Shown one piece after another: positions 22,109-43,072 of a stretch of DNA of 64,000 bases. Source of the DNA: Anaeromyxobacter dehalogenans 2CP-C. GTDB taxonomy: Bacteria > Myxococcota > Myxococcia > Myxococcales > Anaeromyxobacteraceae. Numbering within the stretch: the first letter of the stretch is position 1; each line of letters begins with the position of its first letter. The DNA is taken from contig NC_007760.1 in assembly GCF_000013385.1 (NCBI RefSeq), forward strand, positions 1,551,001-1,615,000, written 5' to 3'. A model generated the notes under the pieces. That model had not been told where the DNA came from and made no database searches. It saw nothing but the letters and a program-made list of their open reading frames with translations. The position numbers and the translations under genes were made by a program.

Positions 22109-23269
22109 CTAGGCGGCGCCGCCCGCGCGCGCCTCCTGGACGGTGGCGAAGAGCCGGAGGTCCTTCGTCTCGGTGTAGCCGCCGAGCGCCTTGCGGACCT
22201 CGGGCGCGCCGACCAGCGCGAGCGACATGCCGAAGTCGCGCGCCTTCTCGGCCACCGCGTTCACCAGCTTGGGCAGCCGGTCGCCCTCGAGCGGCGGCGT
22301 GCCGACGTCGAGCACCACCTCGTCGTAGCAGGCCGCCGCGACCTTCTCGAGCGCGCCGGCGAAGACCGCGTGGACCCGGTTGTAGAAGCGGTCCACCTTG
22401 TCGGCCCGGCCCGCGAACGGCGCCAGGCGCAGCACGTTGTCCTCGATCTGCAGGAAGTCCTGGTTGTCGAAGTACTGGAGCAGGAAGTCGTCGATGGTCT
22501 CGGGGCGGAACGGCTTGAAGAGCACGTCGTCGAAGCCCTGCTCCCGGACCTCCTTGGTGACGTCGTTGGCGGTGCGCAACGCGAGCGCCACCAGGGCGGC
22601 GTGCGGCTGGAGCACGCGGATCTGCTGGGCCAGCACGGCGCTGTTCACGTCGGGGATCTCGGTGTCCACCAGCACCACCCGGTAGACGCGCTCGCGGCAG
22701 GCGGCCAGCGCCGAGGCGGCGCTGGTGTAGCCGTTCAGGCTGACGTGCTGCGGCACCATGGAGCGGAGCTTCTTCTGCACGTTCTCCATGTCGTCCACCA
22801 CCAGCACGTCCACGAAGCGCCCGCCGGCCGGGGCGGCGGGGCCGGCCGCGGCCACCTCGGCGGGCGCGGCCTCGGCGATCGGCTCGGCGCCGAGCCCGCC
22901 CACGCCGCCCTCGCCCTGCAGCACCGAGAGCACCTTGGAGCGGAGCTCCTCGGGCTTGAACGGCTTCAGGATGTAGTCGGCGATGCCGAGCTTCATGGCC
23001 CCGGCCACGATGCTCCGCTTCGACTCCGAGGTGAGCATGATCACCGGCGTCTGGTTGCCGCCGTCGCGCATGCTCTGGAGCATGGCGGGGCCGTCCATGT
23101 TCGGCATGGTGACGTCGAGCAGCACCAGGTCCACCTGCGCCTGCGCGAGCTGCTCGAGGCCCTGGACGCCGTCCTCGGCCTCCAGCACGTCGAACCCCAG
23201 CTCCTTCACTTGCTTGCCGACGATGGTGCGCACCGCGCGGCTGTCGTCCACGGTCAGGATGGCGGGCAT
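22109..23269 (-). CDS. Tandem receiver protein with C-terminal STAS-like domain
   Basis: A 386-aa protein. Residues about 1-120 are a CheY-like receiver: VDDSRAV acidic pocket, phospho-acceptor in LVLLDVTMPNMDGP, Thr in IMLTSES and Lys in YILKPFKPEE. An Ala-rich linker leads to a second receiver (about 150-270) with LVVDDMENV, VVLVDTEIPDV and VLFKPFRPE, so its acceptor Asp and Lys are kept. Residues about 315-380 (DEVVLDVGTPPLEGDRLPKL, GMSLALVGAPEVRKAL) look like a STAS fold. There is no DNA-binding output. It lies between the CheX-like and HDOD genes, so it likely relays chemotaxis phosphoryl groups to protein partners. Confidence 0.82.
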   Translation of the reverse strand: MPAILTVDDSRAVRTIVGKQVKELGFDVLEAEDGVQGLEQLAQAQVDLVLLDVTMPNMDGPAMLQSMRDGGNQTPVIMLTSESKRSIVAGAMKLGIADYILKPFKPEELRSKVLSVLQGEGGVGGLGAEPIAEAAPAEVAAAGPAAPAGGRFVDVLVVDDMENVQKKLRSMVPQHVSLNGYTSAASALAACRERVYRVVLVDTEIPDVNSAVLAQQIRVLQPHAALVALALRTANDVTKEVREQGFDDVLFKPFRPETIDDFLLQYFDNQDFLQIEDNVLRLAPFAGRADKVDRFYNRVHAVFAGALEKVAAACYDEVVLDVGTPPLEGDRLPKLVNAVAEKARDFGMSLALVGAPEVRKALGGYTETKDLRLFATVQEARAGGAA

Positions 23270-23336: not shown

Positions 23337-23789
23337 TCAGGCCAGGCCCTCGAACACCCACAGCACCAGGCCGAGGTGCTCCGCGCGCAGCACCACGCTG
23401 TTCGCGCTCTCGGGCGGCGGCGGCACTGGCGGCTGGCCCGTGGGCACCACCCGCGGCAGCCCGAGCGCCTGCTCCAGGCGCAGGTGCGCCTTGAGCAGCC
23501 CGGCGGTCATGTTCACCAGCTCGCACAGCGAGTCGGAGAGCATCTCGTCCGACACCTCCTCGGCGGCGACCTGGAACAGGGCCGCGGTCAGCGCGGTGCA
23601 GCCGTCGCGATCCGAGGACAGGCCGACCGTGAGCGGGCGCGCGCCCGCGATGGAGAGCACGGCCCCGCGCCACACCAGATCGCGCCACGGCGTCCGGGCG
23701 GCGTCGGGGACGAAGGTGAGTCCCAGCATCGTCTGGGTCACCCCCGACACCACGGAGGCCATCTGCTCTGGGGGCGGCAAGGTCGTCAT
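23337..23789 (-). CDS. cheX: CheX-like CheY-P phosphatase candidate
   Basis: A 150-aa protein of the CheX/CheC-type fold by appearance. The helix LSDSLCELVNMTAGLLKAHL contains the CheC/CheX/FliY catalytic pattern E-x-x-N (Glu90, Asn93) followed by the small residues M-x-x-G. Family members remove phosphate from CheY-P. A strand region VLSIAGARPLTVGLSSDRDG precedes it and a Pro-rich stretch lies near the C-terminus. The ATG at 23789 has no strong ribosome site, so a downstream Met (residue 10) is possible. It heads the transcript with the tandem receiver protein and is divergent from cheA1. Confidence 0.66.
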   Translation of the reverse strand: MTTLPPPEQMASVVSGVTQTMLGLTFVPDAARTPWRDLVWRGAVLSIAGARPLTVGLSSDRDGCTALTAALFQVAAEEVSDEMLSDSLCELVNMTAGLLKAHLRLEQALGLPRVVPTGQPPVPPPPESANSVVLRAEHLGLVLWVFEGLA

Positions 23790-24222: not shown

Positions 24223-26286
24223 ATGTCCGGAGGATCAGGGGCCGAGGCGCGCGAGGCGCTCGCGGCCGCGGTGGTGGCGGCGGACGCGGCGGATCCGGGC
24301 TCGCTCGGCGACCTCGGGCGGGCGCTGGCCGCGGCCGCCGCGGCCGGCGCGCTGGAGGGAGCGCTGGCCGGGGAGGTCGGTGCGCTCGGGCGCGCGCTCG
24401 AGGGCGAGGGCGCCGCGGCGGCGCTCGCGCGGCTCTCCGAGCTGCTCGGGGGCGGCGAGTCCGCCCGTCCGGCGCCGGCCGCGCCCGAGCTGCCCGCGGC
24501 CGCGCGCGCGACCCGCGACGCGGACACGCTCGAGCTCATCGCGGACTTCCTGGAGGAGGGGCTCGACGGGCTGGCCCGCGCCGACGAGACGCTCCTCGCC
24601 GTCGAGCGGGAGGGGCCGCACCCGGACCGGACGAACGCGCTGTTCCGCGTCTTCCACACCATCAAGGGCGTGGCCGGCTTCCTGGAGCTCTCCGAGATCG
24701 TCTCGCTCGCGCACACCGCCGAGACCCTGCTCGACCACGTCCGGAGCGGCCGGCTGGCGCTGGCGGGCGAGGCCTTCGACGTGACCTTCGAGGCGACCGC
24801 CGCGCTGCGGAGCCTGCTGGAGCGGCTGCGCCAGGCGGTGGACGCGCGGGCCGACCTCCAGCCCGACGCGCGCGTGCCGGGGCTGGTCGAGCGGATCGCG
24901 GCGGCGAGCGCGGCCGCGGAGGCGGCCGGCGAGGCGGTGGAGGCGGCGGAGGCGGTGAGCGCGCAGGGCAGCGCGCCGGCGGCGCTGCAGCTGGTCCCCG
25001 AGCCCGCAGCCGCGGAGCCCGCGGCCGAGCCCGGACCTCCGGCCGCGCCCGCGGCCGCCTCGCACCCGGTCGGCGGCCAGCTCCGCGAGACCGTGAAGGT
25101 GGACCTGGAGCGGGTGGACTCGATGGTGGAGATGATCGGCGAGCTCATCATCGTCGAGTCGATGGTGGTGCACGCGCCGGAGCTGGCGGGGGTGGCCTCC
25201 CTGCGCCTGCGCAACTCGCTCAACCAGATGACGAAGATCAGCCGGGACCTGCAGAACGTGGCCATGCGGATGCGCATGGTCCCGGTGCGCGGCGCGTTCC
25301 AGAAGATGGGCCGGCTGGTCCGCGACCTCTCGCGCCGGACCGGCAAGGAGGTGGTGCTCGAGACCTCCGGCGAGGACACCGAGATGGACCGCAGCATGGT
25401 CGAGCGCATCGAGGACCCGCTCGTCCACCTGGTGCGGAACGCGCTCGACCACGGCATCGAGCCCGAGGCGGAGCGCCTCGCCGCGGGCAAGCCGGCCCGC
25501 TCCACCCTGCGCCTCTCGGCGTACCACGAGGGCGGCTCGATCGTGGTGGAGCTGAGGGACGACGGGCGCGGGCTGCAGCGCGAGCGGATCCTGCGCAAGG
25601 CCCGGGAGCGCGGGCTGGTGGGCGACGGGCAGGAGCTGTCCGACGCCGAGGTCCACGCGCTGGTCTTCCTCCCCGGCTTCTCCACCGCCGCCAGCGTCAC
25701 CGAGATCTCCGGCCGCGGCGTGGGCATGGACGTGGTGAAGCGCAACGTGGAGGGGATGCGCGGCCGGGTGACGGTGGGCTCGCAGCCGGGCGCGGGGACC
25801 ACCTTCCGCCTGGTGCTCCCGCTCACCCTCGCCATCATCGACGGCATGCTCGTCTCCTGCGGCGGCGAGACCTACATCCTGCCCAGCCTCTCCATCGTCG
25901 AGTCGCTGCGGCCCACCGAGCAGATGATCCGGCGCGCCGCCGGCCGCGGCGAGGTGATCGACGTCCGGGGCGAGATCCTGCCGCTCCTGCGCCTGCACCG
26001 GCTGCTCGGCGCCCGCGAGACCGCGGCCGCGGCGGACGACCTGCGGGTGGTGGTGGTGGAAGGGCTGGGGCGCAAGGCCGGGCTGGTGGTGGACGACGTG
26101 ATCACCCAGCAGCAGGTGGTGATCAAGCCGCTCGGGAGCGGGATCGGCGACACCGACTTCCTCTCCGGCGCGGCCATCCTGTCGGACGGCAGGGTGGGGC
26201 TCATCCTGAACGTGGACCGGCTGGCGGGCCTCGCGTCGCGCGACGCGGCGGCCGGGCGCGGCGCGCGGCGCGCGGCGGGGGCCTAG
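24223..26286 (+). CDS. cheA: Chemotaxis histidine kinase CheA, system 1
   Basis: Soluble sensor kinase of the chemoreceptor array, 687 aa. After an unusual Ala-rich N-terminal segment of about 95 residues comes the Hpt domain (P1), with phospho-His in RVFHTIKGVAGFLELSEI. No P2 domain is apparent; an Ala/Pro linker (about 225-285) follows. The dimerisation domain is VDLERVDSMVEMIGELIIVE. The ATPase has HLVRNALDHGIEPEAER (N box), DDGRGL (G1) and [11 protein letters not shown] (G2). A CheW-like C-terminus completes the protein. GGAGG precedes the ATG. cheR1 overlaps its stop codon by one base. Confidence 0.95.
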   Translation: MSGGSGAEAREALAAAVVAADAADPGSLGDLGRALAAAAAAGALEGALAGEVGALGRALEGEGAAAALARLSELLGGGESARPAPAAPELPAAARATRDADTLELIADFLEEGLDGLARADETLLAVEREGPHPDRTNALFRVFHTIKGVAGFLELSEIVSLAHTAETLLDHVRSGRLALAGEAFDVTFEATAALRSLLERLRQAVDARADLQPDARVPGLVERIAAASAAAEAAGEAVEAAEAVSAQGSAPAALQLVPEPAAAEPAAEPGPPAAPAAASHPVGGQLRETVKVDLERVDSMVEMIGELIIVESMVVHAPELAGVASLRLRNSLNQMTKISRDLQNVAMRMRMVPVRGAFQKMGRLVRDLSRRTGKEVVLETSGEDTEMDRSMVERIEDPLVHLVRNALDHGIEPEAERLAAGKPARSTLRLSAYHEGGSIVVELRDDGRGLQRERILRKARERGLVGDGQELSDAEVHALVFLPGFSTAASVTEISGRGVGMDVVKRNVEGMRGRVTVGSQPGAGTTFRLVLPLTLAIIDGMLVSCGGETYILPSLSIVESLRPTEQMIRRAAGRGEVIDVRGEILPLLRLHRLLGARETAAAADDLRVVVVEGLGRKAGLVVDDVITQQQVVIKPLGSGIGDTDFLSGAAILSDGRVGLILNVDRLAGLASRDAAAGRGARRAAGA

Positions 26287-27574: not shown

Positions 27575-31952
<4,378 letters not shown>

Positions 31953-32470: not shown

Positions 32471-32550
32471 GAGCGGGGTGCCCGGATTCCCCGGCCGGTG
32501 CCGGGGCGGCGCGCCGCCGTGATCCCGGCGCGTGGAGGATGAGCGAGCGC

Positions 32551-34350
32551 ATGGAAGCCGTTCCGTCCGGACCGGCGCCGGAGGCCCCGGCGGCACTGCT
32601 CGAGGCGACGCGCGCGCAGCTGCGCGGCGTGGCCGAGCGCCTGTCGGCGTTCCTCCATGGCTCGGAGGACGTGTTCCTCGAGGCCGGCCAGCGCCTCGGA
32701 GCGCTGGCGGGGCGGGCCCGCGGGATGGTGGACGCGGCGCGCCGCGCGGCCGGGCCGGGCGACGCCGAGGACGGCGCCGACCCGGGGGCGGTGCTGGCGC
32801 CGGCGCTCGAGCGCCTCGCGTCGTACCTGGGCGACAGCCGGGCCGGCGCCGCGCGCCAGCGCGAGGCGCTGGAGCGGGTGGGGGGGCGCGCCGACGCGCT
32901 CGCCGCGGCGGGCGGCGCGCTCGCCGACGTGCCGCGCACCCTGCGGGCGCTGGGGGTGAGCACGCGGATCGAGAACTGCCGGGCGGAGGTCCCGAACGCG
33001 GGCGTGGAGACGGTCGCGTCCGACGTGCGCCGGCTGGCCGACGACGTCGAGGCGCGCTTCGCGGCCATGGTCGCGCGCGCCGGCGAGCTCGCCCGGGCGG
33101 TGGCGGCGGCCCGCGGCGCGGCCGAGGCGTTCGCCGGGCGCGAGCGGGCCTGGTCGGACCGGATGCTGGCCGACACGCAGCAGGCGCTCGCGGCGCTGCG
33201 GGCGCTCGCCGCGGCGCAGGCCGGGGTGGTCGCCGGCGCGGCGGACGCGTCCGCCGGGATCGCGGCCAGCGCGTCCAGCGTGGTGGTGGGCCTGCAGGGG
33301 CACGACGCCACCCGCCAGATCCTGGAGCACGCGGCGGAGGCCCTGCGCGCCTTCGACGCAGAGGCCGGCGGCGGCAGGGCGGGCGAGGCCCCCGACGCGC
33401 CGGCCTGGCTCGCCGAGGCGGCGGGGGTGTGCCGGCTCGCCGGCGCGCAGCTGGGCGGGGCGCGGGCGCGGCTGCTGGAGGCGCTCGAGGCCATCCGCGG
33501 GAGCCTGGGCGCCATGGCGTCGCGCGCCGATGCGCTCGGCCGCGACCTGGGGCTGGTCGCGGGCGACGGCGTCGAGGGCTCGCCGGTCGCGCGGGTGGAG
33601 CGCGGGGTGGGCGCAGCGACGCTCACCCTGGCCGAGCACCTCGCGCAGGCGCGCGCCGGCGCGGAGTCGGCGCGGCGGGTCGCCGAGGCGGTGGGCGGGA
33701 TCGCCGAGCAGGTCCGCGCGACGCGGGCCATCGGACACGCGGTGAAGATCATCGCGCTGAACGCGCTGGTGGAGACGGAGCGGGCGGGCGTCGGCGGGCG
33801 GGTGCTGGCGGTGCTCGCGCGCGAGATCCAGCTGCTGGCGGCGGAGGTGGTGCGGCGCACCGACGAGGTGTCCGCCTCGCTCGGGGCGATCACCTCGGCC
33901 GCCGCGGCGCTCGAGGTGGACCGCTCGGCCGCGGCCGCCACCGAGGGCGAGGCGCTCTCGGCGGCGCTGGGCGCGCTCGTCGCCCGGCTGGGCGCGCGCC
34001 ACCTCGCGCTCGCGGCCGGCACCCGGCGGCTGCGCGAGGACGGCGCGGCGCTGCGGCGCGAGGTGGACGAGGTGGCGGCGCGGCTGGCGCGGCAGCTCGA
34101 GCTGGCGCGCGGGCTGGACGCGCTCGAGCGCGAGCTGGCGAGCGCCGGCGCGCGCGCGGCGGCGGGGGCGGGCGCGGCGGCCCCGGCGGCGCGGGCGGCC
34201 GGGCGGGCCGCGCTGGAGCGCTACACGATGTCGTCGGAGCGCGACGTCCACGCGCGCGTGACGGGCGAGGGCGCGATCGCGCCGGCGGCGGCGCGCGGCG
34301 GGGCGCCCTCGGCCGGCCAGGACCTGGGCGCCAACGTCGAGCTGTTCTGA
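32551..34350 (+). CDS. Soluble degenerate receptor with a CheZ-like DxTxQ motif
   Basis: A cytoplasmic, nearly all-helical protein of about 599 aa with no membrane segment and no HAMP. The numbers given here count from an in-frame ATG at 32539. Two receptor-tip-like segments occur: VPRTLRALGVSTRIENCRAE (131-150) and KIIALNALVETERAG (403-417) followed by a REIQLLAAEVVRRT helix. Between them VVVGLQGHDATRQILEHAAE carries Asp256 and Gln260 in D-x-T-x-Q spacing, as in the CheZ catalytic helix. The C-terminus ends DLGANVELF. ATG 32551 is chosen because GGAGG abuts 32539 with no spacer, but 12 bases is also not ideal. It heads system 2, before STAS and CheY. Function as a CheY-P phosphatase/scaffold is inferred. 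Confidence 0.7.
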   Translation: MEAVPSGPAPEAPAALLEATRAQLRGVAERLSAFLHGSEDVFLEAGQRLGALAGRARGMVDAARRAAGPGDAEDGADPGAVLAPALERLASYLGDSRAGAARQREALERVGGRADALAAAGGALADVPRTLRALGVSTRIENCRAEVPNAGVETVASDVRRLADDVEARFAAMVARAGELARAVAAARGAAEAFAGRERAWSDRMLADTQQALAALRALAAAQAGVVAGAADASAGIAASASSVVVGLQGHDATRQILEHAAEALRAFDAEAGGGRAGEAPDAPAWLAEAAGVCRLAGAQLGGARARLLEALEAIRGSLGAMASRADALGRDLGLVAGDGVEGSPVARVERGVGAATLTLAEHLAQARAGAESARRVAEAVGGIAEQVRATRAIGHAVKIIALNALVETERAGVGGRVLAVLAREIQLLAAEVVRRTDEVSASLGAITSAAAALEVDRSAAAATEGEALSAALGALVARLGARHLALAAGTRRLREDGAALRREVDEVAARLARQLELARGLDALERELASAGARAAAGAGAAAPAARAAGRAALERYTMSSERDVHARVTGEGAIAPAAARGGAPSAGQDLGANVELF

Positions 34351-34367
34351 GGTTCGGGAGGAGCGGG

Positions 34368-34661
34368 ATGCGGATCGAGCTGCCGGAGGACGTGACCATC
34401 GCGCGGGCGGAGGCGCTGCGGGCGCTGCTGCTCGAGGCGATCGGGCGCGGGGAGGAGCTCGTGGTGGGCGCCGGGGCGGTCGCGTCGGTGGACGCGGCGG
34501 GGCTGCAGGTGCTGTGCGCGGCCGCTCGCAGCGCTGCGGCGCTCGGGGTGCGGCTCGCGCTGGACGCGCGCAGCGACGCGCTCGCGGCCGCGGTGGCGCG
34601 GTGCGGGCTCGAGCGCGCGCCCGGGGGATGCTGGCTGGCCGCGGAGGGCCGAGATGCCTAG
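34368..34661 (+). CDS. STAS-domain protein lacking the phosphorylatable serine
   Basis: A 97-aa single STAS domain (anti-sigma-factor antagonist fold). Features: MRIELPEDVTIARAEALRAL as the first strand and helix, then ASVDAAGLQVLCAAARSAAA, where SpoIIAA-type proteins have D-S-S-G-L. Both serines are alanine here, so regulation by phosphorylation is unlikely. GGGAGG precedes the ATG. Its 3' end overlaps cheY by 8 bases. STAS genes recur beside cheY and cheA in chemotaxis operons of this type, but their role is not established. Confidence 0.85.
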   Translation: MRIELPEDVTIARAEALRALLLEAIGRGEELVVGAGAVASVDAAGLQVLCAAARSAAALGVRLALDARSDALAAAVARCGLERAPGGCWLAAEGRDA

Positions 34662-35022
34662 GTGCGTGCTGGTGGTGGACGACTCGGCGAGCGTGCGGCT
34701 CGCGGAGCGGGTGGTGCTCACCGGGGCGGGGTACGAGGTGCTCGAGGCGGTGGACGGGCAGGACGCGCTCGCGAAGCTCGCGGCGCGCCCGGTGCAGCTC
34801 GTGCTCACCGATCTGAACATGCCCAACCTCGACGGCGTCGGGCTCATCCGCGCCGTCCGCGCCGACCCCGCGCACCGGCTGACGCCGGTGGTGATGGTGA
34901 CCACCGAGTCGGAGCAGGCGCGCAAGCAGGAGGGCAAGGCGGCCGGCGCCACCGGGTGGATCGTGAAGCCGTTCAGCCCCGAGCAGCTCCTCGCCGTGGC
35001 CGCGCGCCTGCTGGGCGCCTGA
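34654..35022 (+). CDS. cheY: Response regulator CheY
   Basis: Single-domain receiver, 122 aa, the only stand-alone CheY in the window. Acid pocket VVDDSAS, phospho-acceptor Asp in LVLTDLNMPNLDGVGL, Thr in VVMVTTESEQ, Lys in WIVKPFSPEQ. The T-T-E-S-E-x-x-x-K-x-E-G-K-x-A-G-A-T-G-W segment is typical of chemotaxis CheY proteins in CheA-CheY-STAS operons. Start overlaps the STAS gene. Possible targets are FliM (19600-20616) and the phosphatase candidate upstream. Confidence 0.96.
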   Translation: MPRCVLVVDDSASVRLAERVVLTGAGYEVLEAVDGQDALAKLAARPVQLVLTDLNMPNLDGVGLIRAVRADPAHRLTPVVMVTTESEQARKQEGKAAGATGWIVKPFSPEQLLAVAARLLGA

Positions 35023-35032
35023 GGAGGACGGG

Positions 35033-37009
35033 ATGCGCTCCCTGGAGCAGCTGGCGGCGAGCTACCGCGAGGAGGCCGGCGAGCGGGTGGCCGAGCTGGA
35101 GGTCACCCTGCTCGAGCTGGAGCGGGCGCCGGACGACGCCGAGCTGGTCTCGCGCGCCTTCCGCGCGCTGCACACCATCAAGGGCTCGGGCGCGATGTTC
35201 GGCTTCGACGAGGTGGCGGCGTTCACCCACGAGCTGGAGAGCGTGTTCGAGCACGTCCGCGGCGGGCGGCTGCCCGTCACGCGCGAGCTGATCGGGCTCG
35301 CGCTCGCCGGCAAGGACCTGGTTCGGGCGATGCTGGACGGCGAGGCCGGCCCGGACGCGCGCGAGCGCGACCGGCTCGTGGCGGCGTACCGGAAGCTCGC
35401 GCCGGACGCGCCCGCCGGGGCGCCGGCGGAGCGCGATCGCGGCGACGCCGGGGGCACCCCGGCCGGCCACGCCGGCGCGGCCCCGCGCACCTGGCGCATC
35501 GCGTTCGAGCCGAACCTCGACCTGTTCGAGAACGGCACCAATCCGCTCGGGCTGCTGGACGAGCTGGCGACGCTCGGCCGGTGCGTGGTGGTGGCGCGGA
35601 CGGACGCCGTCCCGCCGCTGGAGGAGCTCGCGCCGGAGCGGTGCCACCTGGCCTGGGCGGTGACGCTGACGACGGATCGCGGCGAGGACGCCATCCGCGA
35701 CGTCTTCGCGTTCGTCGAGGACCGCTGCACGCTGCGCGTCGAGGCGGTCACCGACGCGGAGGCGGTGCTCGCCGCGCCCGCCCCGGGCCCCGCGGCCGGG
35801 GCCGGGGAGGTCCCGCGCTCCGCCGGCGGCGCGGCCCGGCCGCCGGAGGCGGCGGCCTCCAGCGTGCGCGTCGCGGCGGCCAAGCTCGACCACCTGGTGG
35901 ATCTGGTGGGCGAGCTGGTGACCGCGCAGTCCCGGCTGGCGCGGATCGCCGCGCAGGCGGAGGACGCGGACCTGGCGGCCGTGTCGGAGGGGCTGGAGCG
36001 GCTCACCGCCGACCTGCGCGACACCGCGCTCGACCTGCGGATGGTGCCCATCGGCTCGGCGTTCGGACGCCTGCGGCGGGTGGCGCGCGACCTCGCGGCC
36101 GACCTCGGGAAGGAGATCGACCTCGTGACGGAGGGCGCCGAGACGGAGCTCGACAAGACGGTCATCGAGCGGCTCTCGGACCCGCTCGTGCACGTGATCC
36201 GGAACGCCTGCGATCACGGCATCGAGGCGCCCGAGGCCCGGCGCGCGGCCGGCAAGCCGCCGCGCGGCACCATCTCGCTCTCGGCCCGCCAGGCGGGCGG
36301 CAGCGTGGTCGTGGAGGTCCGCGACGACGGCGCCGGCATCGACCCGGCGGCGGTGCGCGCCCGGGCCGAGGCCCGCGGCCTGCTGCAGCCGGGCGCGCGC
36401 GTGGGGGAGGCCGACCTGCTCAACCTGGTGTTCCAGCCCGGGTTCTCCACGGCGCGGACCGTCACCAGCGTCTCCGGGCGCGGCGTGGGCATGGACGTCG
36501 TGAAGCGCTCGGTCGAGGCGCTCCGCGGCACCGTCGCCCTGGAGAGCGCGCCGGGCGCGGGGACGGCGCTGCGCATCGAGCTGCCGCTCACGCTCGCCAT
36601 CATCGAGGGGCTGCTGGTGGAGGTGGGCGGCGGCAGCTACGTGCTGCCGCTCGCGGCGGTGGAGGAGTGCGTGGGGCTCACCGCCGCGGAGGTCGAGGCC
36701 GCGCGCGGGGCGCACCTCGCGCCGGTGCGGGGCGAGCTCGTCCCGTACCTCCGGCTCCGGGAGGTGTTCGAGGTGCGGGGCGCGCGGCCGGAGCACGAGC
36801 AGATCGCGATCGTGCGGACCGAGGCGGGGCGCTGCGGCCTGGCGGTGGACCAGGTCGCCGGCCAGCTCCAGGCGGTGGTCAAGTCGATGGGGCAGATGTT
36901 CCGCGGCGTGAAGGGGCTCTCGGGCGCGACCATCCTCGGCGACGGGAGCGTCGCGCCCATCCTGGACGTCGGGGCGCTGTTGAAGGAGCACGCGGCCCGC
37001 GCCGCGTGA
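35033..37009 (+). CDS. cheA: Chemotaxis histidine kinase CheA, system 2
   Basis: Histidine kinase, 658 aa. P1 has [20 protein letters not shown] with the phospho-His. A P2-like module covers about 160-245 ([36 protein letters not shown]), absent from CheA1. Dimerisation starts at [20 protein letters not shown]. The ATPase has [24 protein letters not shown] and [11 protein letters not shown]. The CheW-like domain has [26 protein letters not shown] precedes the ATG, 10 bases after the cheY stop codon. Confidence 0.96.
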
Positions 37010-37095: not shown

Positions 37096-38922
37096 ATGCG
37101 CTGGTACGAGAACCTCGGGATCACCGCGAAGCTGCTCGTCGGGTTCACCCTGGTCGCGCTGATGGCGGGGGTGGTGGGCGGGGTGGGGTACAGGCAGGTC
37201 ACCGCCCTGAACTCGGCCGACTCCTTCCTTTACCACAAGTGCACCCTCTCCCTCAAGTACCTGGCGGAGATGGTCGCGAGCTACCGCGGCCAGAAGTCGG
37301 AGCTCCAGGACGCGCTGGCCGAGACCACCCGCTCGGCGCGCGAGGCGCCGCTCGCGAAGCTCGAGGCGTACGAGGCGCGCTTCCAGGACCGCATGAAGCG
37401 CTACCCGGAGACGTTCTCCACCGACGCGGATCGGAAGGCGTTCGCGGAGCTGGAGGGGCTGCACCGCGCCTACTCGGCGGCGCGGGACCGGGTGGCGGCG
37501 CACATCCGCGCCGGCGAGGACGCGCGCGCCCAGGAGGTGCTGCGGGGCGAGCTGGCGACCGCGTTCGAGGCCGAGCGCGCGACGCTCCAGGCCATGCTGG
37601 ACGCGAACGACGAGGTCGCGCGCCAGACGAGCGAGGCGAACGACGCGCTCGCCGCGCGGGCGACCCGGATGATGCTGGCGACCGCCCTGGCCGCCATGCT
37701 GCTCGCGGTGGGCCTGGGGATCCTCGTCGCGCGCACCATCAGCCGGCCGATCGGGGCGATGGTCACCGCGGCGGAGCGCATGGCCGTCGGCGACCTGGAC
37801 GTCGAGCTCCGCGAGGATCGCAAGGACGAGGTGGGCGTGCTCGCGCGCGCGTTCGGGGCGATGAACCGGGCGCTGCGCGGCGTCACGGGGGCGGCGCAGG
37901 AGGTCGCCGGCGGCAACCTGCGCGTCCAGCTCCAGGCGCGCTCCGACCGCGACGAGCTGCTCCGCGCGCTCGCCGAGATGGTGCGGCGGCTGACCGAGGT
38001 GGTGCAGGGCGTGAAGGTCGCGGCGGACGGCGTGGCGGCGGGCTCGGAGCAGCTCAGCGCCGCCTCCGAGCAGACCAGCCAGGGCGCCACCGAGCAGGCG
38101 TCGTCGATCGAGGAGATCTCCGCGTCGATGGAGGAGATGGGGTCGAACATCCGGCAGAACGCGGACAACGCGTCGCAGACCGAGCAGCTCGCGACCCGGG
38201 CGGCCGGCGTCGCCGCCGAGGGCGGCGAGGCGGTGGCCCGCACGGTGGAGGCCATGAAGCAGATCGCCGGCAAGGTGTCGATCATCGGCGAGATCGCCCG
38301 TCAGACGAACCTGCTCGCGCTGAACGCCGCCATCGAGGCGGCCCGCGCCGGCGAGCACGGCAAGGGGTTCGCGGTGGTCGCGTCCGAGGTGCGCAAGCTC
38401 GCCGAGCGGAGCCAGAAGGCGGCCGGGGAGATCACCGAGCTCTCCGCCACCAGCGTGTCGGTCGCGGAGAAGGCGGGGGAGCTGCTCGGGCGCATCCGGC
38501 CCGAGGCGCAGAAGACCTCCGAGCTGGTCCAGGAGATCAGCGCGGCGAGCCGCGAGCAGGACACCGGCGCCGCCCAGATCTCGAAGGCCATCCAGCAGCT
38601 CGACCAGGTGATCCAGCAGAACGCGTCCGGCGCCGAGGAGATGAGCTCCACCGCGGAGGAGCTGACCGCCCAGGCGGTGAAGCTGCAGGAGCTGATCGCG
38701 TTCTTCCGCGTGGACGACGGCGCGGCGCGCACGCTGTCGCGCCCGGCGGCGCCGGCGCGACCGGCCGCCGCGCCCGCCAGGAAGGCCCCGGCGCGGCCCG
38801 GGCCCGGGGCCACGCCGCCGGCGTCGAAGCCCGCCGCCCGGCCCGCCGCGGCGCCCGGGGCGGGCGTCCACGTCGAGCTCGCCGAGCCCCCGGAGCCCGA
38901 GCCCGGCTACCAGGCCTACTGA
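37096..38922 (+). CDS. Transmembrane chemoreceptor, system 2 (four-helix-bundle type)
   Basis: Methyl-accepting chemotaxis protein, 608 aa. TM1 about 10-32, periplasmic helical bundle to about 188 (4HB-like), TM2 about 190-212, then a HAMP domain ([20 protein letters not shown]). The signalling tip is canonical ([20 protein letters not shown]). The tail is a Pro/Ala-rich linker ending GYQAY, which fits the x-[FWYH]-x-x-[FWYH] pattern of CheR/CheB-tethering pentapeptides. The ATG at 37096 follows CGGAGA and starts just before TM1. It is the natural receptor for the CheA/W/R/B of this operon. Confidence 0.94.
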
Positions 38923-38946
38923 GCGCGCGCCCGACCGGAGAACGCC

Positions 38947-39492
38947 ATGGACGAGTCGGCCTCGACCCGAAGCCAGCAGTACCTGACCTTCACCCTCGAC
39001 GGCGAGCACTACGCGGTCGAGATCGAGCGGGTGCGGGAGGTGCTCGAGTTCACCGGGGCGAACAAGGTGCCGCGCACCCCGGACTTCCTGCGCGGCATGA
39101 TCAACCTCCGGGGCGACATCGTCCCGGTCGTGGACCTCCGCCTGAAGCTCGGCCTGTCCCCCACCGAGCGGACCATCGACACCTGCGTCGTCATCACCGA
39201 GGTCACCTCCGACGGCGAGCCGCTCGTGCTCGGCGCCCTGGCCGACTCGGTCCAGGAGGTGATCGAGCTCGACCCCGGGGCGATCGCGCCGCCGCCGCGC
39301 ATGGGCGCGCGGGTGGACACCGCGTTCATCCGCGGCGTGGGCCGGCGCGAGGACCAGTTCCTGGTCATCCTCGACATCGAGCGGGTGCTCGCGGACGACG
39401 GGCTGCGCGCGCTGGCGGGGTCGCTGGACGCGCGGATCCCGTCGGGCGCCGTCGAGGCGGAGCGGGTGGGGGATGCCGGGCTCGCGGGCTGA
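38947..39492 (+). CDS. cheW: Coupling protein CheW, system 2
   Basis: CheW scaffold, 181 aa: YLTFTLDGEHYAVEIERVRE, VPRTPDFLRGMINLRGDIVP and VVDLRLKLGLSPTE, with FIRGVGRREDQFLVILDIER at the C-terminal strand. A tail of about 35 residues extends beyond the core. Its last 20 bases overlap the start of cheR2, so translation is coupled. Confidence 0.96.
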   Translation: MDESASTRSQQYLTFTLDGEHYAVEIERVREVLEFTGANKVPRTPDFLRGMINLRGDIVPVVDLRLKLGLSPTERTIDTCVVITEVTSDGEPLVLGALADSVQEVIELDPGAIAPPPRMGARVDTAFIRGVGRREDQFLVILDIERVLADDGLRALAGSLDARIPSGAVEAERVGDAGLAG

Positions 39493-40384
39493 TCGGCGCG
39501 GGGGAGGCGGCCTCCCGGCCGGCCCGGCGGCGAGCCGGCTCGCCGGGCCGCCCCCGCTCTCGCCGCGGGACTTCGCGCGCCTGGGCGCGTTCATCGAGGG
39601 GCGCTGCGGCATCCGCATGCCGCCCTCGAAGCGGACGCTGCTCGAGTCGCGGCTGGGTCGCCGCGTCCGCGAGCTCGGCCTCGCCGGCTTCGGCGAGTAC
39701 TGCGACCACGTGCTCGGCGACGCGCCGGGCGACGAGGTGGTCCGGATGGTGGATCACGTGACCACCAACAAGACGGACTTCTTCCGCGAGCCGCACCACT
39801 TCGAGCTCCTGGTGCGGGACGTGCTGCCGGCGCTCGCCGCGGCCGCCGGCGCGGGCACGCGGCGGCCGCTCCGGGTGTGGAGCGCCGGCTGCTCCACCGG
39901 CGAGGAGCCGTACACGCTGGCGATGGTGCTGCTCGAGGCGGCGCGGCAGGCGACCGGGCTGCGCTTCGGGATCCTCGGGACCGATCTCTCGACGCGCGCG
40001 CTCGAGCGCGCGCGCCGCGCCGAGTACACCGAGGCGCAGGTCCGGCCCGTGCCGCTCGCGCAGCGGCGGCGCTACCTGTTGCGCAGCATCCGGGATCCGC
40101 AGGTCGTGCGGGTGTGCCGGGAGGTGCGGGAGCTCGTCGCGATCGAGCAGCTCAACCTGCTCGACCCCGACTACCGGCTCCGCGAGCGGATGGACGTGAT
40201 CTTCTGCCGCAACGTGTTCATCTACTTCGAGCGGTCGGTGCAGCAGCGCGTCCTGCTCCGGCTCGCGCGCGCCCTCTCGCCGGGCGGCTTCCTGTTCCTG
40301 GGCCACGCCGAGAGCATCGCCGGGCTGGAGGTGCCGTTCGACCCGGTGGCGCCGACCGTCTACCGCCTGCGCGAGGACGCCTAG
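39473..40384 (+). CDS. cheR: Chemoreceptor methyltransferase CheR, system 2
   Basis: SAM-dependent receptor methyltransferase, 303 aa. An Ala/Gly/Pro-rich N-terminal 28 residues (partly overlapping cheW2) precede the helical domain (FARLGAFIEGRCGIRMPPSK). Catalytic core: TTNKTDFFREPHHFELLVRD, RVWSAGCSTGEEPYTLAMVL, VIFCRNVFIYFERSVQQRVL and LFLGHAESIAGL. A later start without the basic N-terminus is possible. A tether-type receptor tail (GYQAY) is encoded in the same operon. Confidence 0.95.
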   Translation: MPGSRADRRGGGGLPAGPAASRLAGPPPLSPRDFARLGAFIEGRCGIRMPPSKRTLLESRLGRRVRELGLAGFGEYCDHVLGDAPGDEVVRMVDHVTTNKTDFFREPHHFELLVRDVLPALAAAAGAGTRRPLRVWSAGCSTGEEPYTLAMVLLEAARQATGLRFGILGTDLSTRALERARRAEYTEAQVRPVPLAQRRRYLLRSIRDPQVVRVCREVRELVAIEQLNLLDPDYRLRERMDVIFCRNVFIYFERSVQQRVLLRLARALSPGGFLFLGHAESIAGLEVPFDPVAPTVYRLREDA

Positions 40385-41476
<1,092 letters not shown>

Positions 41477-41489
41477 GCCGCGCCCGCGG

Positions 41490-42269
41490 CTACCGCTCCG
41501 CGGCCGCGGCCCCGAGCAGCTCGTCGTGGGGGTCGAGCTCGAGCACCAGCTCGACGCGGCGGTTGCGCTCGTGCGCCTCCGGGGTCGCGTCGGTCGAGAG
41601 CGGGTGCGCGGAGCCGAGGCCGACCGCGGAGAGCCCGGCGGGGCGGGCCGCGTGCGCCTGCTCCAGGTAGCCGACCACCGTGGCGGCGCGGGCGGCCGAC
41701 AGCTCCCAGTTGCTGATCCAGCGCCCGCCGCCGCCCACCGGCGTCTCGTCGGTGTGGCCCTCCACCCGGAGCGGCCGGGCCAGGGGGACCAGCTCCGCCG
41801 CGATGGCGTCGAGCATGGCCAGGGCCTGCGGGCGGAGCGCGGCCTGGCCGGGGTCGAAGAACTCGGTGGCGGCGAGCCGGACGGTGAGCCGGCGCCCCTC
41901 CACCAGCACCGAGACCACCGGCACGGGGCGGCGCTCCATCACGAACGGCCGGACGCGCCGCTCGATGCGCTTGCGGAGCAGCTCGATGCCGCGGTGCTCC
42001 TGGCGCATGCTGGTGCCGGCCTCGAGCGCGGGCCCGCCGCCCTCGCTGGGCGGCCCGTCGAACAGCGGCAGCGCCCCGGTCCCGCCGGTGCCCGAGAAGT
42101 GCATGGCCCAGCGGATCGACTCGGTGGCCTGGACGATGCGCTTGTTGTCCACCCGCGAGACCGCGTACATGACCACGAAGAACGCGAACAGCAGGGTCAT
42201 GAAGTCGGCGTAGGACACCAGCCAGCGCTCGTGGTTCTCGTGCTCCTCCTCGCGGCGTCGGCGGGCCAT
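41490..42269 (-). CDS. motB: Stator protein MotB
   Basis: Peptidoglycan-anchored stator subunit, 259 aa. The single membrane helix carries the essential proton-binding Asp: WLVSYADFMTLLFAFFVVMY. The OmpA-like peptidoglycan-binding domain includes LRVEGHTDETPV, NWELSAARAATVVGYL and ERNRRVELVLE. The ATG at 42269 follows GGAGGAG. The frame stays open upstream through motA, an artefact. Ion specificity (proton or sodium) cannot be decided from the sequence. Confidence 0.96.
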   Translation of the reverse strand: MARRRREEEHENHERWLVSYADFMTLLFAFFVVMYAVSRVDNKRIVQATESIRWAMHFSGTGGTGALPLFDGPPSEGGGPALEAGTSMRQEHRGIELLRKRIERRVRPFVMERRPVPVVSVLVEGRRLTVRLAATEFFDPGQAALRPQALAMLDAIAAELVPLARPLRVEGHTDETPVGGGGRWISNWELSAARAATVVGYLEQAHAARPAGLSAVGLGSAHPLSTDATPEAHERNRRVELVLELDPHDELLGAAAAER

Positions 42270-42286
42270 GGCTCCTCCAGCGGCCG

Positions 42287-43072
42287 CTAGGCGGCCTTGC
42301 GCCGGGGCTCCGCCTCGCGCTCGGCGGGCGGCTCCCCGGAGTAGGCGCGCAGCTTCTCCTCCAGCACGCGCGGGTTGATGCCCTCCTGGATGGCGAGCAC
42401 GCCCTCGGTGACCAGGGTCTTGCGGTCGCGCTCCGCGCCCAGCTTGCGCTTCATCTTGTTGGCGAACGGGAGGAACAGGACGTTCGCGCTCCCCACGCCG
42501 TACACCGTGGCCACGAACGCCACCGCGATGCCGCCGCCGAGCTTGGAGGGATCCGACAGGTTCTCCATCACGTGGATGAGCCCCAGCACGGCGCCGAGGA
42601 TCCCGACGGTGGGGGCGAACCCGCCGGCCGCCTCCCACACCTTCGCGCCGACCACGCGCTCCTCGAAGTCGGCGTCCACCGCGGCCTCGAGCGTGGAGCG
42701 GGTCACCGACGCGTCCACGCCGTCCACCACGAGCTGCAGCGCGCGGCGCAGGAACGGGTCCGGGATCCCGGGCAGCCTCGCCTCCAGCGCCAGCACGCCG
42801 TCGCGGCGCGCCACGCCGGCGTAGTCCACCAGCTCGCGCGAGAGCGCGCCCAGGTCCACCTTGCGCTCGGTGAACACCAGCTTGAGCTGCGAGAGCGCCT
42901 TGCCCACGTCGCGGCGAGGGAAGGCCACCAGCACCGCGCCGAAGGTCCCGCCGAACACGATCAGCGCCGCGGTGGCCTGCAGGAGCGAGCCGACGTGCCC
43001 GCCCTCCAGGGCCTGGCCCAGCAGGATCAGGCCCACGGCGGCGGCGATGCCGGCGATGGTGGTGACGTCCAT
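42287..43072 (-). CDS. motA: Stator protein MotA
   Basis: Stator ion-channel subunit, 261 aa, with four hydrophobic segments. It begins MDVTTIAGIAAAVGLILLGQ and has the cytoplasmic loop with the charged residues that contact FliG. The TM3-TM4 block is AAGGFAPTVGILGAVLGLIH and VAFVATVYGVGSANVLFLPF, including the conserved Pro of the gate. The tail is basic. GAGGAG precedes the ATG, and flbD ends four bases upstream. Confidence 0.96.
   Translation of the reverse strand: MDVTTIAGIAAAVGLILLGQALEGGHVGSLLQATAALIVFGGTFGAVLVAFPRRDVGKALSQLKLVFTERKVDLGALSRELVDYAGVARRDGVLALEARLPGIPDPFLRRALQLVVDGVDASVTRSTLEAAVDADFEERVVGAKVWEAAGGFAPTVGILGAVLGLIHVMENLSDPSKLGGGIAVAFVATVYGVGSANVLFLPFANKMKRKLGAERDRKTLVTEGVLAIQEGINPRVLEEKLRAYSGEPPAEREAEPRRKAA

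Follow-up and report, generated by a model that had tools for sequence, protein, structure and literature searches.

The protein P0001, encoded at the head of a chemotaxis operon, is probably (at roughly 0.6) a soluble, duplicated, receptor-shaped phosphatase of phosphorylated CheY (CheY-P), belonging to an undescribed family. The larger discovery is the family, not P0001 alone. Relatives from two phyla retain the CheZ-like motif unchanged and are encoded near the same set of signalling genes; this points to a hitherto unrecognised class of receptors that end their own signal. It is an even question whether a widespread chemoreceptor-phosphatase class of this kind, in which the receptor hairpin would carry the CheZ active site, exists in Pseudomonadota and Myxococcota, and the odds are equally balanced that P0001 represents a duplicated, division-of-labour version of it. 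Judged by its sequences, the family is a joining of two known kinds of protein, a receptor and a CheZ-like helix. A search of the open-access literature found no description of a receptor-CheZ combination. The earlier note regarded these functions as not normally joined; that claim changes, since members of both Pseudomonadota and Myxococcota combine them.

The P0001 gene and its operon

The window, the whole stretch of 64,000 nucleotides that was analysed, covers positions 1551001-1615000 of a 5,013,479-base single-contig genome. The open reading frame was found where the earlier note had placed it, leading an operon of STAS, CheY and CheA genes that are identified downstream by Pfam (Table 1). 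The list of open reading frames also allows a start at the ATG at 32539, giving 603 amino acids. The residues numbered Asp252 and Gln256 here, in the 599-residue protein, are Asp256 and Gln260 of the earlier note, which used the 603-residue numbering; their codons (33304-33306 and 33316-33318) lie exactly at the ends of the DxTxQ that it had reported at 33304-33318.

Table 1. Coordinates, in the window, of P0001, its parts and neighbouring chemotaxis genes.
Feature	Position	Strand	Basis
P0001, receptor-shaped protein with CheZ motif	32551-34350	+	599 aa; ORF and translation, orthologues L003 and L004
Module copy 1: helical hairpin, degenerate receptor tip, intact DxTxQ helix	32551-33375	+	hhalign, A5 vs A4
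Degenerate receptor tip 1, ALGVSTRIENCRAE	32947-32988	+	aligned to family tip
CheZ-like motif LQGHDATRQILEH	33292-33330	+	invariant in orthologues; Q, D, Q 24/24 in family
Module copy 2: better receptor tip, DxxxQ lost, YTMxSER box, tail	33376-34347	+	hhalign to A4
Receptor tip 2, IIALNALVETERAG	33748-33789	+	sub-cut-off Pfam MCPsignal, E 4.1e-5; alignment to A4
Expected DxxxQ site of copy 2, reading LELAR, with Leu for Asp and Arg for Gln	34096-34110	+	alignment to A4
RYTMSSERDVH box	34219-34251	+	common to Pseudomonadota members (SYATDEQRNIH, GYAMDSQRHVH)
C-terminal tail LGANVELF	34324-34347	+	LGxNVELF in P0001, L003, L004; terminal F in 23/24 family members
STAS-domain gene, frame as scanned	34353-34661	+	PF13466, E 1.4e-13
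CheY, presumed P0001 substrate	34654-35022	+	PF00072, E 1.6e-25
CheA	35033-37009	+	Hpt, H-kinase_dim, HATPase_c and CheW domains (Pfam)
Remaining operon genes: MCP, CheW, CheR, CheB	37129-41476	+	Pfam
CheX homologue, neighbouring che cluster	23430-23663	-	PF13690, 40.2 bits

P0001 is without a membrane part, and its match to MCPsignal (PF00015), over residues 374-449, scores 23.9 bits, below the Pfam cut-off of 34.6. Two receptor-tip-like segments and the lack of a HAMP domain had been noted previously. Both segments are present and Pfam finds no HAMP domain in P0001, although the tips turn out to belong to two tandem copies of one module and not to a single receptor split in two. In the alignment to the family (A4, described below), the tip of copy 2 keeps the N, A, E, R and G positions and lacks the canonical GRGF, while that of copy 1 is degenerate. 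The protein ends in GQDLGANVELF, so that the conserved-looking tail DLGANVELF is indeed there, its NVELF being invariant in P0001 and both orthologues. AlphaFold run without an alignment predicts residues 150-272 as one helix, at low confidence; the models are poor (mean pLDDT of 54 for P0001 and 63 for its N-terminal half) and give no usable fold.

The catalytic DD, D, T and K residues of the operon's CheY were recognised by eye. A MotB gene at 41490-42290, on the reverse strand, lies just past the operon, which suggests that the chemosensory system of P0001 serves flagellar motility.

Conservation of the motif

Shuffled sequences contain a bare DxxxQ in 48% of cases and a DxTxQ in 1.7%. DxxxQ is thus expected by chance, and the motif by itself is weak evidence; it is taken as real because it is conserved in the orthologues and stands in register with a family of 24 members. 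The two orthologues are L003, 86% identical to P0001, and L004, 36% identical and from a different family of the same order. Residues Q249, D252, T254, R255, Q256, E259 and H260 are invariant across the three proteins, and both orthologues retain VGLQ(G/S)HD(A/S)TRQ, RYTMxSERxVH and LGxNVELF. Between P0001 and L004, the stretch holding the motif (residues 246-265) ties with residues 30-49 and 244-263 as the best-conserved window of 20 columns, with 14/20. The earlier note had made its proposal depend on conservation of the Asp and the Gln; neither varies in any of the 27 sequences aligned (P0001, L003, L004 and the 24 family members), and the proposal therefore survives its own refuting condition.

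Proteins of the P0001 type were found in 3/145 genomes of the order by a profile search in which up to 17 candidates were scored per genome, so that P0001 itself is a rare type. A DNA-pattern search of genome contigs with P0001 returned a single match, an ordinary methyl-accepting chemotaxis protein (MCP), and a plasmid search with P0001 as query returned no match.

A wider family of receptor-shaped proteins

P0001 weakly matches a protein of another myxobacterium (L005), which is soluble and MCP-like, carries LQFQDRTNQ about 110 residues past its tip and ends in SVELF; the relatives of this protein show the same pattern. A plasmid search with a Myxococcota relative as query led to operons of Aeromonas and Pseudomonas. 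Their proteins have LQFQDRVSQIL, an (S/T)YATxEQR box and a terminal xVTFF or xITFF, and each is encoded first in an operon of MCP, CheY, STAS and CheA. Further MCPs matched on plasmids, globin-coupled ones and others, lack the motif. A profile of the C-termini of these two gammaproteobacterial proteins (A2) matched at 16 further sites, spread over 13 of 299 Pseudomonadota genomes. It also matched, independently, at five Myxococcota loci, of which four lie in proteins or families that had been met before; the distribution of the family is drawn from such samples of genomes.

Twenty-four members from Pseudomonadota and Myxococcota were aligned (A4). The family is defined by an MCP-like hairpin, an LQxxDxxxQ about 110 residues beyond the tip, and a terminal F. 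Its members have an MCP signalling domain, LQFQDRxxQ about 110 residues beyond the tip of that domain, and, at the C-terminus, a tail of the form [I/V]xxF. The Q, D and Q of LQxxDxxxQ (Q325, D328 and Q332 in the LQFQDRVSQ of the Aeromonas protein) are the sole invariant columns after the receptor tip and the three of lowest entropy there; all but one of the 24 members end in F. By these sequence features P0001 is a member, its tip and motif being separated by about 112 residues and both of its halves matching A4. The member nearest to it in wording, L046, has LQFQDITRQQVEHV, GYAMDSQRHVH and NIELF.

The Pseudomonadota relatives have a canonical tip, N-terminal hydrophobic helices and an MCPsignal match above the cut-off. 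A short protein at L048:1384-2004, on the reverse strand and directly before a CheY gene, has LQFGDLVSQ and GEIELF and no receptor tip; it is a candidate stand-alone form of the module. In L005 and in one further soluble relative (L012), the first 110 or so residues, which sit where a sensor domain would be, are without a convincing Pfam match.

Tandem duplication

According to the alignments, P0001 is a tandem duplicate of the family module, in which copy 1 has kept the motif and copy 2 has lost it. Aligned to A4 with hhalign, copy 1 (A5) gives E 3.3e-14 over 241 columns, placing DATRQ on DRVSQ, and copy 2 gives E 1.6e-17 over 271 columns, among them the tip, the YTM box and the stretch leading up to the tail. 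With reversed sequences as controls, the E values are 0.0065 and 0.04, respectively. Taken by itself, the region of the motif (residues 180-275) reaches a score of 45.0 with A4, compared with a maximum of 13.2 over 30 permutations and with 11.2 when reversed. Upon searching the genome of P0001 with A4, the first half of P0001 was found at 32590-33423 with E 5e-15, reaching profile position 375. The match of the ordinary MCPs of that genome ends at or before position 325, with one exception (L084). This exception was rejected: it is an ordinary MCP, and its alignment, seemingly extending past the motif, enters the following gene through a stop codon.

Direct comparison of the two halves gives a weak duplication signal (BLASTP E 5e-7, in Ala-rich sequence; hhalign E 7e-4). 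The duplication is therefore read from the separate matches of both halves to A4, and the direct comparison is not relied on.

Relation to CheZ

P0001 is not a member of CheZ by Pfam, since the CheZ model (PF04344) has no match at E values up to 1 in P0001 and up to 5 in the orthologues. The resemblance to CheZ claimed by the earlier note is nonetheless supported at the level of the family. The post-tip module of the family was compared with an alignment of seventeen CheZ sequences collected with PF04344 (A3), giving E 4e-5, a score of 34.9 and a probability of 69%, with FQDxxxQ on the FQDLTGQ of CheZ; the permutation maximum is 13.6 and the reversed score 11.4. Four ordinary MCPs compared with CheZ give E 0.07. 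The Pfam CheZ model also has sub-cut-off matches over the motif in two members, L014 (E 5.7e-5) and L046 (E 7e-4). P0001 by itself matches the CheZ profile weakly (E 0.009, probability 4.5%), and its link to CheZ thus passes through the family. In these sequence comparisons the step from P0001 to the family appears strong and that from the family to CheZ moderate. Among 60 relatives, including the genome of P0001, no CheZ scored above the cut-off.

Like CheZ, P0001 and the family carry DxxxQ on what would be the C-terminal helix of a hairpin, and are encoded together with CheY. The family shares with CheZ the surrounding FQDxxxQ pattern and the order of the parts after the motif, where a flexible linker leads to a conserved peptide at the C-terminus. 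P0001 differs in being much longer and duplicated, with a receptor-type tip, in having GHD where CheZ has FQD, and in ending in NVELF instead of the VDDLLxSLGF peptide of A3.

Proposed function and alternatives

In CheZ, which acts on CheY-P in Pseudomonadota, Asp143 and Gln147 enter the active site of CheY, where the Gln positions a water molecule for its attack on the phosphate. The family proteins would form the antiparallel hairpin of chemoreceptors and, by homology to MCPs, a dimeric four-helix bundle; LQxxDxxxQ, near the far end of the C-terminal helix, would be the equivalent of Asp143/Gln147, followed by a linker, presumably flexible, and a short conserved peptide at the C-terminus. 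In P0001 the catalytic Asp252 and Gln256 would come from copy 1, and the receptor-type tip and C-terminal peptide from copy 2. The most likely substrate is the CheY encoded two genes downstream, which would be dephosphorylated by the CheZ mechanism, with Asp252 fixing the active-site Lys of CheY and Gln256 orienting the attacking water. The tip or the tail may place the protein at the array of CheA, CheW and receptors, or hold a partner. Because both tips are altered and the membrane part is lacking, a phosphatase that is soluble, either associated with the array or free, is likelier than a sensor. The relatives with a canonical tip could be both receptor and phosphatase. In favour of a phosphatase count the invariant Asp and Gln, the in-register matches of P0001 to the family and of the family to CheZ, the sub-cut-off CheZ matches in two members, the neighbouring CheY, STAS and CheA genes, the place of L048 before a CheY gene and the negative search for CheZ in the 60 relatives. 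Counted against it are the negative Pfam result for CheZ in P0001, the weak direct match of P0001 to the CheZ profile, its GHD in place of FQD, the poor AlphaFold models, the difference of its tail from the CheZ peptide, the CheX-type phosphatase in the genome and the narrow distribution in the order.

The tail of P0001 may serve to bind CheY, as that of CheZ does, or to tether CheR/CheB like the receptor pentapeptide NWETF. As it aligns with the pentapeptide pattern xWxxF, with V for W, the tether is an equally possible role. That it is such a tether and not a dock for CheY, which would be compatible with phosphatase activity, has a substantial chance, somewhat short of even. NVELF and DITFF match NWETF in length, position and terminal F, the last residues are DIRDF in an MCP of the sister cluster and GYQAY in the operon's own MCP, and CheT, a CheZ-like phosphatase, forms a complex with CheR (PMC12654446). 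However, position -4, aromatic in the pentapeptide, holds I or V in all but two of the 24 family members, and L048, which is not a receptor, ends in the same kind of tail.

The conservation of the motif might indicate a surface for interaction and not for catalysis, P0001 then being a scaffold of receptor-like build whose LQxxDxxxQ helix or tail binds CheY or CheY-P without hydrolysis, as a sink, localiser or inhibitor. The solubility of P0001 and its degenerate copy 1 tip agree with this, but it is unlikely, in that the strictly invariant residues are only those of the CheZ active site and the Q of LQ, with varying flanks, and mere docking need not preserve the exact Asp and Gln pair. Less likely again is a structural role of the invariant Q-D-Q at the base of the receptor, in helix packing or a dimer contact, the likeness to CheZ being convergence. 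MCPs and CheZ are both long antiparallel four-helix bundles, which can inflate profile scores. Nevertheless, the ordinary MCPs match CheZ only at noise level, the reversed and permuted controls fail, the ordinary MCPs of the same genome leave the family profile at or before position 325, bar the one spurious extension, and L048 retains the motif without an MCP tip.

It is also improbable, to a slightly greater degree, that P0001 acts on the STAS branch, by regulating or tethering the STAS protein, and does not target CheY: a STAS gene is adjacent or within two genes in most loci, but L005 and L048 adjoin CheY with no STAS gene in the part read, and the motif looks like that of a response-regulator phosphatase and not of a STAS partner. 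That P0001 is merely a normal receptor in decay whose DxTxQ arose by chance, for which the frequency of bare DxxxQ in shuffles would speak, is refuted by the in-register invariance over 27 sequences and by every control comparison, and is given next to no weight.

Comparison with other chemotaxis proteins

The termination of chemotaxis signals is attributed to separate enzymes, namely CheZ, CheC/CheX/FliY and CheT. P0001 resembles MCPs (PF00015) in its receptor tip and helical hairpin, and differs from them in its lack of a membrane or HAMP part, its sub-threshold MCPsignal match, its degenerate tips and its LQxxDxxxQ helix, which is absent from ordinary receptors. CheX, CheC and FliY have the biochemical role proposed here for P0001, with an unrelated fold and motif. 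In the open-access literature, the closest published case of a remote CheZ is CheT of Sinorhizobium meliloti, reported to be a distantly CheZ-like phosphatase that has DxxxQ but lacks significant homology to the known chemotaxis proteins (PMC12654446). Compared by description only, CheT differs from P0001 in that it is not reported to be receptor-shaped (PMC12654446). For CheY phosphatase activity within another core array protein there is a precedent in the phosphatase domain of CheA3 of Rhodobacter sphaeroides (PMC6829392). That protein is derived from a kinase, not from a receptor.

A phosphatase built from a receptor, if confirmed, would be a sink inside the array which a stimulus could gate. 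The receptor could end its own signal, perhaps gated by ligand or by the state of the array, in systems with a CheY-STAS-CheA core, and this would explain how signals end in systems without a CheZ of their own. It would also offer a hypothesis for the MCPs that head CheY-STAS-CheA operons and are annotated merely as 'methyl-accepting chemotaxis protein'.

Gene neighbourhoods and other phosphatases

The family gene adjoins CheY, STAS and CheA genes in most of the loci read. The order MCP-like, CheY, STAS, CheA is found in L025 (Aeromonas), L028 (Pseudomonas), L037, L040, L042 and L045, and the order MCP-like, STAS, CheY, CheA in the window and in L004. A STAS reading directly follows in the part of L003 that was read, a STAS gene is next in L047 and L049, and in L005 the family gene follows a CheY gene. 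The neighbours were assigned by Pfam for L004, L005, L037, L042, L047 and L048, and from record annotation or by eye for the others.

The CheX homologue of the neighbouring che cluster adjoins a protein with two receiver domains (22109-23269) and a CheA-like open reading frame (24223-26286), and no CheX homologue was found among the P0001 operon genes scanned. The sister clusters thus seem to use different types of phosphatase. The MCP of the sister cluster (28645-31260, reverse strand) has three HAMP_2 repeats, and its DIRDF end shares I/V at position -4 and F at -1 with the tails of the P0001 family. At L015:448-975, on the forward strand, an open reading frame of 175 amino acids looks by eye possibly CheX/CheC-like and has a hydrophobic tail ending in F, GDLLLF. 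In L047 the STAS gene is followed by a response regulator whose later part looks like a PP2C-type phosphatase, which hints at a serine-phosphorylation switch tied to these systems.
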